Of a stretch of DNA of 64,000 nucleotides, positions 32,777-34,614 are shown piece after piece. The stretch lies in assembly GCF_014196925.1 (NCBI RefSeq), contig NZ_JACIEN010000002.1, positions 248,001 through 312,000 of the forward strand, read 5' to 3'. This DNA is from Chelatococcus caeni (GTDB lineage Bacteria > Pseudomonadota > Alphaproteobacteria > Rhizobiales > Beijerinckiaceae). Below the pieces are notes generated by a model that saw only the letters and a program-made list of their open reading frames with translations, made no database searches and was not told where the DNA came from. Each line of letters starts with the position of its first letter. Position 1 is the stretch's first letter. The translations under genes and the position numbers were made by a program.

Positions 32777-32825
32777 GAAAACCTCCATTCCGCCCCTCCG
32801 GCGGATGTCAGGGTTGCCTCGCGCG

Positions 32826-32990
32826 CTGGCCGGTCTCCTGGCTTGCGGGTCCCTGCTGCGATTCGGCCTTCCCGGTGCCCGATGGCCCCAGTGGCTTCGT
32901 CGAATCGCCGCTCGCCGCTCACAGTTGCGGGGGCAGCCACGGTCTTGCACCGTGTTCCCGTTTCACCCCGCTGCGGCGGGGCACCAACGC
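32826..32990 (-). promoter_or_regulatory. Cobalamin riboswitch upstream of btuB
   Basis: Read on the minus strand, this stretch contains the ordered conserved blocks of a cobalamin (AdoCbl) riboswitch. They are GGTGCCCCGC..GGGGTGAAACGGGAA near the 5' end, GGTGCAAGACCG, GCCCCCGCAACTGT, GCCACTGGG, CGGGAAGGC and the B12 box AAGCCAGGAGACC near 32826-32845. The order and spacing match the known element. It controls btuB-btuC-btuD, probably by blocking translation, since no T-run terminator follows. In the 345-base gap 32777-33121 the remaining part, about 33000-33121, should hold the promoters of both divergent operons. Confidence 0.93.
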
Positions 32991-33121
32991 AGGGCCTCTT
33001 TACGCAGACCGCGGCTCGGCCGCAAGCATGCGGAACGGATGCACCGCCTGTGCATTTGCGCCGGCGCAAGGAGCGCCGTAAGGCTGCGGCCGAGATTGCG
33101 CCCGAAAGGGCGGGCAAGGAC

Positions 33122-34228
33122 ATGAGGGATATGAGGACGGCTGTCGCGTTCGCGATCGTGCTTGCAACGGGGCTCGGCCTTGCGCCGGCTGCCGGCAGCA
33201 GCGAGCCGGAGCGCCTCTCTCCTCCCTCCCCCCACGCAGTGGTGGGGAGGGCCGGGGTGGGGGGCGGTTCCGCCGGCGGGCGTTCGACGATTGCAGGTGG
33301 CGTGTCCGTCGGCCCGGAAGGCTTCCGGCCTGCACCCGCCGGCCCCCCACCCCTAACCCCTCCCCGCCGCAAGCGGGGGGAGGGGGATATGGTGCGCCTC
33401 GCCGCGGCCGGCCGATCGGAAACCGCGCCGTCCGTTGCCCGCTACGCCGAAGCGCCTCCGGCGCGGGTCGTTTCGCTCAACCTGTGCGCCGACCAGCTCC
33501 TGCTGGCGCTGGCCGATCGCGGACAGATCGCCTCCCTCAGTCCCCTGTCGCGCGATGCGGATTATTCCTTCCTCGCGGGCCGGGTGGGCGACCTTCCGGT
33601 CAATGGCGGCACGGGCGAGGAGATCCTGGTCGGCGAGGCGGGTCTCGTGCTCAGCGGCCGCTATGGCACGCGCGTCAAGCGCGAGCTTTTGGAGCGCCAC
33701 GGCGTGCCGCTGATGGTGCTCGACCCCTGGCGCGACATCGCCGGGGGGCGCGAGCAGCTGACGGCCGTCGCGGCCCGGCTGGGCCATCCGGAGCGCGGCG
33801 CGGCGCTTGCCGCCGAGATCGAGGCGGCGCTCGCGCGCACCAAAGGCCTCGCCCGGCGCCCGGCCACCGTCCTCGTCCTCTACCGGCGCGGCTACGTGCC
33901 GGGGGAGCGCTCGCTCGTCGCCGAGCTTCTAAGCCACATGGGCCTTCAGCCGATGCAGGCCCGCCTCGGCCTGCCGCAGGGCGGCCTCGTGCGCCTCGAG
34001 CAACTCGTCATGGGCCCGCCGGACTTCGTAGTGATGGACGAGGCCGATGCTCGCGCCATCGACAACGGCACGGCCTTCCTCGTCCACCCGGCGCTCGCCG
34101 GCGTGCTGCCGCCCGAGCGGCGCCTGTTCCTCCCGGACCGGCTCACCATCTGCGGTGGGCCCTCGACGCCGGCGGCCATCGATGCACTCGCCGCCGAGGT
34201 GCGCGCCAAGGTGAACCGGGAGCGTTGA
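33122..34228 (+). CDS. btuF: Periplasmic cobalamin-binding protein, with an in-frame palindromic element insertion
   Basis: A 368-residue ABC substrate-binding protein, longer than the usual 260-300. Residues 1-25 are a signal peptide. The binding fold begins at RVVSLNLCADQLLLALAD (Arg115 onward) and runs through DWRDI-like and LTICGGPSTPAAIDAL blocks of BtuF relatives. Between them, residues about 34-90 are a Pro/Gly/Arg-rich segment encoded by GC-rich inverted repeats that normally lie between genes. A second in-frame ATG at 33389 has AGGGGG just upstream, but starting there would lose the signal peptide. The gene is divergent from btuB and not under its riboswitch. B12 specificity is inferred from location. 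Confidence 0.8.
   Translation: MRDMRTAVAFAIVLATGLGLAPAAGSSEPERLSPPSPHAVVGRAGVGGGSAGGRSTIAGGVSVGPEGFRPAPAGPPPLTPPRRKRGEGDMVRLAAAGRSETAPSVARYAEAPPARVVSLNLCADQLLLALADRGQIASLSPLSRDADYSFLAGRVGDLPVNGGTGEEILVGEAGLVLSGRYGTRVKRELLERHGVPLMVLDPWRDIAGGREQLTAVAARLGHPERGAALAAEIEAALARTKGLARRPATVLVLYRRGYVPGERSLVAELLSHMGLQPMQARLGLPQGGLVRLEQLVMGPPDFVVMDEADARAIDNGTAFLVHPALAGVLPPERRLFLPDRLTICGGPSTPAAIDALAAEVRAKVNRER
33224..33385. repeat. Composite palindromic repeat embedded in btuF
   Basis: The left hairpin at 33224-33251 pairs CCCTCCCC with GGGGAGGG. The right hairpin at 33357-33385 pairs CCCCTCCCC with GGGGAGGGG. Between them, GGGGTGGGGGGC at 33254-33265 is the exact reverse complement of GCCCCCCACCCC at 33342-33353, closing a larger cruciform. 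This combination, including the CCCCCCACCCCTAACCCC segment, is the style of a dispersed intergenic element of rhizobial genomes. Here it lies wholly within a coding frame and contains no stop in that frame. Confidence 0.8.
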
Positions 34229-34263
34229 AGCATGATGACTTTAAGATCGGCGCACGCGTTGAT

Positions 34264-34583
34264 CCTCCCCCGTACGGGGGAGGTGGCGCCGCGAAGTCGG
34301 GCTCGCCCGACTTCGGTTTCCAAATGTCGAAGTCGGGCAAGCCCGAGTTCGATGGCGGTGACGGAGGGGGCACGCGAGTGACATCAGGAGCGCCGTACCC
34401 GGTCTTGACCCCACCCGTCTCGCGCCTCCGAACTCGGGCTTGCCCGAGTTCGGCACCTAAAAAGCCGAAGTCGGATAAATCCGACTTCGGACGGCGCGAT
34501 CCACCCTCCCACGGACCTCGGGCTTGCCCGAGGTCCGCACTTATATGCGCAAGTCGGGAACACCCGACTTGCGAAAGGGAGGG
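34264..34583. repeat. Nested array of palindromes between btuF and cobQ
   Basis: The 386-base gap 34229-34614 holds no gene but seven palindromes. A perfect 20-base one is at 34264-34283. Six related ones follow at 34292-34315, 34327-34352, 34428-34453, 34465-34490, 34512-34537 and 34548-34573. The six share a core close to CTCGGGC-TT-GCCCGAG with 11-12-base arms and loops of two to four bases. Five have perfect arms although the arm sequences differ, so changes are compensated on both sides; the second has one mismatch. CCCTCCC at 34504-34510 and GGGAGGG at 34577-34583 enclose the last two. The array probably also terminates the two convergent operons. Confidence 0.88.
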
Positions 34584-34614
34584 ATCAAGCCAAGTCTTCC
34601 GCGTCGACTTAAAC

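Follow-up and report, generated by a model that had tools for sequence, protein, structure and literature searches.

A dispersed palindromic repeat carried in frame by a btuF-like gene of Chelatococcus caeni, with related in-frame copies in other genes

The window analysed here, a 64,000-nucleotide stretch of the Chelatococcus caeni genome, contains a btuF-like open reading frame that runs without a stop from the ATG at 33131 up to the stop codon ending at 34228 (Table 1). In a profile search, Peripla_BP_2 (PF01497) matched residues 116–309 of the product (E 2e-11), and a Foldseek search with the domain of its AlphaFold2 model placed the heme-binding proteins RhuT/HmuT at the top, with the BtuF structures 5ysc and 1n2z at ranks 14 and 32. 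The protein thus has the fold and the family profile of BtuF and the class III binding proteins; among the NCBIfam models, no BtuF equivalog was reached. BtuF is nevertheless a fair name, because a cobalamin riboswitch (32811–33003, minus strand) adjoins the gene, which points to vitamin B12 as the ligand; the product is probably an exported, vitamin B12-binding protein. There is no close spare copy, since the genome yields no match at E <= 1e-20 besides the protein itself. As for the start codon, ATG 33131 is more likely than ATG 33122, because a 1-base indel separates the two in Chelatococcus sambhunathii and because the signal peptide that follows 33131 is matched by the Chelatococcus composti orthologue.

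Table 1. The btuF-like gene and the parts of its palindromic element, in positions of the window
Feature	Position	Strand	Basis
btuF-like gene, class III substrate-binding protein with palindromic insert	33131..34228	+	open frame, PF01497, AlphaFold2 fold
Start codon, signal peptide (by eye) and the few residues preceding the element	33131..33217	+	MRTAVAFAIVLATGLGLAPAAG... aligned with C. composti VRIILALAVLLASGLGIAPAF...
Palindromic element, in frame, ~57 codons	33218..33387	+	repeat family; absent in C. composti; equal length in C. sambhunathii
Left outer hairpin	33224..33251 (contig C2 281224-281251, minus 248000)	.	pattern match
Left inner arm	33254..33265	.	12/12 complementary to right inner arm
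Core, not common to most other copies	33266..33341	.	26 long copies aligned; 1/76 bases differs from C. sambhunathii
Right inner arm	33342..33353	.	perfect 12-base inverted repeat with 33254-33265
Right outer hairpin	33358..33384 (contig C2 281358-281384, minus 248000)	.	pattern match
Possible second start codon	33389..33391	+	sequence; one base past the element; kept in C. sambhunathii
Substrate-binding domain	33467..34225	+	dN/dS 0.13 against C. sambhunathii; pLDDT mostly >90

Between the signal peptide and the binding domain lies an element of ~170 bp, made of two CCCTCCCC/GGGGAGGG hairpins in inverted orientation that flank a copy-specific core. A sequence-only reading of this DNA had described an in-frame insert at this place, with a 12-base perfect inverted repeat and a Pro/Gly/Arg-rich linker of more than 50 residues. 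Indeed, the inverted repeat is present, the frame is open throughout and the element amounts to about 57 codons in frame, while the bounds given in that reading, 33224–33385, were approximately right, the other copies putting the ends slightly further out, at ~33218 and 33387. A codon model trained on the 64-kb window found no coding character in the element. The open frame is by itself nothing special and is a by-product of the element's G+C-rich make-up, because 90 of the 156 frames in 26 long copies are free of stop codons. Behind btuF, at 34230–34600, the window holds a cluster of other palindromes (of the AAGTCGGGC...GCCCGACTT type, and CCTCCCCCGTACGGGGGAGG), which by their look belong to other repeat families.

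The btuF stretch was suspected in the same reading to have the style of a dispersed repeat, and it does belong to a genome-wide family. With 33200–33400 as query, the 5.43-Mb C. caeni genome gave, with scoring of 40 of its 89 first-look candidates, at least 69 matches (E <= 1e-3), and the best other copy among the scored candidates is 79% identical (E 1.3e-32). The nearest named relatives are C. sambhunathii (locus L015; genome G003 is identical to it over a 1.5-kb region) and C. composti (L016; genome G002 is identical to it wherever the two were aligned), and G001 is a fourth Chelatococcus. At the same threshold, and with 40 candidates scored per genome, G003 gave at least 18 matches and G002 and G001 none. 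Exact hairpin patterns number 103 in C. caeni, 33 in G003, 4 in G002 and 1 in G001, and 0 in the reversed-pattern control. When aligned, 26 long copies share one layout, in which an outer hairpin and then an inner arm stand on each side of a mostly copy-specific core. The regions of the C. caeni genome that we examined hold 107 hairpins in 64 groups, 24 of which are single hairpins. With short palindromes, many scattered copies and inverted pairs, the family has the character of dispersed REP-like palindromic doublets. Its hairpin pattern occurs in 96 of the 149 genomes searched of the bacterial family, very unevenly and in up to 137 copies. In one copy (L059:1987-2232), tracts of C and of G extend over tens of bases, probably an assembly artefact at the repeat; contigs C4 and C5 also have copies close to their ends. 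The right flank of L044 (query 1718–1811) is another dispersed repeat, of the CATGGCCGGGCCTGTCCCGGCCATCCACGCC type, found at some twenty places in C. sambhunathii.

Comparison with the relatives identifies the btuF element as an insertion: the btuF genes of C. composti and G001 have empty sites, as the sequence-only reading had led one to expect, and C. sambhunathii carries the same insertion at equal length. The motif RVVSLN is preceded by 32 residues in C. composti and by 111 in C. caeni, a difference that includes ~22 extra residues around the element, shared by C. caeni and C. sambhunathii and absent in C. composti, for which the element does not account. Between C. caeni and C. sambhunathii the binding domain differs by 47 synonymous and 19 non-synonymous changes, and the resulting dN/dS of 0.13 indicates purifying selection. 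The element itself shows 2 synonymous and 3 non-synonymous changes and 0 indels, but its dN/dS says little, because synonymous divergence is low throughout the N-terminal part of the gene. Among the eight long copies common to both species, the arms have indels in 6/6 non-coding copies and in 0/2 coding ones (btuF and cobB). The length difference between the two species is a multiple of three at 4/4 coding sites versus 5/12 non-coding sites (one-sided p = 0.07), a count without L040, L045, L051, L057, L059, L061, L064 and L066, which have no clear long or single form in C. sambhunathii, and without L062, whose right border is unclear. A first impression from several shared copies, that the core is conserved better than its surroundings, did not hold in a joint count over 7 of the 8 copy pairs (L040 could not be anchored), in which 33 of 475 core sites differ, against 50/1021 and 92/1029 sites in the flanks.

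We consider it highly likely that the btuF element is a palindrome insertion that occurred in a common ancestor with C. sambhunathii, kept the frame and is translated as a tolerated linker. In this scenario, a dispersed repeat of ~170 bp, its core copy-specific and enclosed by REP-like hairpins in inverted orientation, would have landed after the signal peptide and ahead of the binding domain, with the frame kept by chance and no stop introduced. The insert would then be read as a Pro/Gly/Arg-rich disordered linker of ~57 residues and the exported protein would stay functional, while selection would purge frame-breaking changes and tolerate amino-acid changes in the linker. The repeat family, the empty sites, the open frame and the conservation of the remainder of the gene are shown directly; translation of the element, its disorder in the cell and its near-neutrality are what we infer. 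The AlphaFold2 model also predicts a disordered insert, with pLDDT <50 over residues 1–105 and mostly >90 in the domain from ~110 onwards; the low confidence across the N-terminal part arises partly from the alignment, in which the insert is present in no more than 2 of 18 sequences.

In the same scenario, this process would also have placed such palindromes in frame in other genes, mostly between domains. A scan for open frames through copies with coding flanks found long copies in frame, besides btuF, in cobN (L039), bioD (L047) and cobB (L060), the three proteins scoring above their NCBIfam cut-offs, and a wider scan of the 64 groups, in the C. caeni genome only, brought in two further genes with related palindromes, one for a glycosyltransferase (L071) and one for an ABC ATPase of two domains (L162). 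The insert of CobB sits between its CbiA and GATase_3 domains, and that of the ABC ATPase between the two ATPase domains. In total, 6 of the 64 hairpin groups in the regions examined are in-frame parts of real genes, counting btuF, and the copies that the sequence-only reading had thought worth searching for are thus both dispersed and in part coding. The wider scan flagged L072, L047, L071, L162 and L060 and missed btuF and cobN, which are supported by the open-frame and relative comparisons. L072 was rejected as a coding copy, a stop codon preceding the element in the coding frame so that it lies between two genes, as was a minus-strand frame over L039 from the first frame scan, a shadow of cobN. 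Empty sites were found for cobN and for cobB in both G002 and G001, and for bioD in G001; the bioD locus was not found in G002. In C. sambhunathii, cobB has the long form, and cobN and bioD each have a single in-frame hairpin encoding ~12 residues.

These genes also bear on whether translation of the btuF product begins at ATG 33389 instead, with the element serving as 5' untranslated sequence or dividing a dead signal-peptide frame from the gene. The sequence-only reading had the element create this ATG, from which a signal-less second product might arise; the ATG exists and its upstream purine run comes from the element, but the codon begins one base past it. GGAGG stands five bases upstream, a better spacing than at ATG 33131, C. 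sambhunathii has kept the codon, and REPs located at N-termini may in many cases be non-coding, as stated in the available part of Di Nocera 2013 (PMC3733652). We nevertheless think a start at 33389 very unlikely: it would leave a periplasmic binding protein without a signal, although the signal peptide read from 33131 is matched in C. composti and the frame crosses the element without an indel. Conservation of the signal peptide upstream of the element in three species likewise favours export of the protein started at 33131. Moreover, the inserts of cobN, cobB and bioD are flanked by conserved parts of one protein, and must be read if that protein is to be whole.

Three of the four long-family coding copies lie in B12 genes, and all four are read with identical orientation and, at the left inner arm, in identical phase. 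Around cobN and cobB, on contig C6 at 208000–226000, four hairpin groups fall within 18 kb against 0.2 expected (Poisson p 7e-5), in a stretch that was picked post hoc. The density of hairpin groups found there is ~20x the average. The C. composti cobN (L107:158-260) carries one in-frame hairpin pair, at a site that differs from that in C. caeni, in a genome with only 4 exact hairpins. We found cobN in 23 of 29 hairpin-rich genomes of the bacterial family, with hairpins within the frame in 6/23, all at sites unlike that of C. caeni; a single genus accounts for four of these six and two other genera for one apiece, and some of the loci hold part of the gene only. The control gene carB, of similar length, was found in 28/29 of these genomes and had hairpins in 0/28. 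Fisher's test gave p 0.006 by genome and 0.09 by genus (3/13 versus 0/15), so the B12 bias is suggestive only, because of the by-genus value and because carB, a conserved gene, may tolerate less. A gap in the carB matches was rejected as a palindrome, the 11 gapped genes that we read having Lys/Glu-rich inserted residues there and lacking hairpins. No hairpin occurs in any of the 23 btuF-like loci from other genomes (L013, L014, L017-L037), which argues against a btuF bias beyond the pair of C. caeni and C. sambhunathii. In four species of one genus (L173-L176), the CobN linker before ALI(L/I)(F/V)YRS contains serial REP-like peptides (PLPGGERS, LTPTLSPPGRGS, DPSPPGEG) and looks as though struck by several palindrome families. 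Our literature search found nothing on palindromes together with cobalamin or cobN, a weak negative since subscription journals were mostly outside its coverage, and a bias of in-frame palindromes towards B12 genes, suggestive as it is, is new as far as we know.

It is possible, and we propose it only tentatively, that several related hairpin-pair families have entered cobalamin genes, chiefly cobN, in recurrent and independent events in different genera of the bacterial family and have been kept in frame there, by a route without RAYT and without target duplication, B12 genes being a preferred ground for landing or survival. A further reading would be co-option, in which the linker would benefit BtuF as a tether or through its surface properties, or the palindromes would act on the mRNA of B12 genes. 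The predominance of B12 genes among the four long-family coding copies, the common orientation and phase, and the hairpins at other cobN sites in C. composti and three further genera are consistent with it, but those cobN sites vary between lineages, the single hairpins of the C. sambhunathii cobN and bioD imply that a long linker is dispensable there, and changes in the inserts are mostly non-synonymous (3/5 in btuF, 4/5 in cobB). We regard co-option as unlikely and favour the tolerated linker.

As to how the repeats move, a RAYT as the mover was not supported: the C. caeni genome has 0 matches to the RAYT/Y1 transposase profile PF01797 (control positive in 5/14), and in a search covering 148 of the 149 genomes of the bacterial family a Y1 transposase occurred in 2 of 31 genomes with >=20 hairpins versus 26 of 118 others (p = 0.07). 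Comparison of 26 copies with permuted flanks supported no target site duplication (p = 0.84), this set and that of the open-frame test having one copy swapped relative to the alignment set. A MITE with target duplication was likewise not supported, the 7-base GCGCCTC at btuF being within chance (1 copy with at least 7 bases; 1.6 expected). The sites of 25 C. caeni long copies (24 loci and btuF) are long in C. sambhunathii at 8, single at 10 (of which L038 is degenerate and L062 has an unclear right border) and neither or unclear at 7. These 10 sites, the single hairpins of C. composti at the L052 and L055 sites (2 of its 4 exact hairpins), and the lack of any long form where C. caeni has a single one among the 16 C. 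sambhunathii copies examined would fit single hairpins as the older state, with long elements arising when sequence enters the hairpin loop, in place of singles being remnants of long ones. We find this conceivable but somewhat doubtful: the cores are mostly unique to each copy, which leaves no donor copy in view, slippage would join the half-stems, as these are direct repeats, and single REPs of Pseudomonas are taken as remnants of pairs in the available part of PMC3116915. At L039/L085 and L055/L090, the loop of the C. sambhunathii single hairpin (CGCTTGCGG) is the reverse complement of the C. caeni right-hairpin loop, as if loops flip.

Several known systems resemble the Chelatococcus repeats in part. 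REPINs, as described in the accessible portion of PMC3116915, are inverted palindrome pairs with a spacer, singles also occurring, and the Chelatococcus element has the same layout and likewise occurs as singles; it differs in its genome's lack of PF01797 matches. REPs of the GTAG/CGTC type, their dimers and clusters lie within open reading frames of several genera, encoding 20–30 and up to 82 residues (Di Nocera 2013, PMC3733652). The Chelatococcus family stands outside these superfamilies, its arm consensus (by eye) having CTAG but no GTAG, CTAC, CGTC or GACG. Many of the intragenic REPs are, in the part of that article available, in genes of DNA synthesis and repair, as against B12 genes here. 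The Rickettsia palindromic elements (RPEs), of which the sequence-only reading had been reminded, are palindromic repeats of ~150 bp that occur outside genes as well as, in frame, within a wide range of unrelated proteins, nearly half of those of R. conorii being in frame, according to the available part of PMC10969869. The likeness holds for behaviour, namely in-frame insertion in otherwise conserved genes together with copies outside genes, and not as membership; unlike RPEs, the Chelatococcus family consists of GC-rich hairpin pairs with copy-specific cores and has six in-frame cases among the 64 groups examined. The Chelatococcus repeats are thus a further family of the known protein-coding palindromes, beside RPEs and intragenic REPs, untagged and without RAYT. 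They offer a free-living genus in which the empty site, the single hairpin and the full element can be seen inside the same genes of related species, and the repeated insertions into cobN are a natural experiment on why certain genes accept such inserts. How non-coding repeats turn into protein sequence, a question so far raised mainly by Rickettsia, thereby becomes testable.
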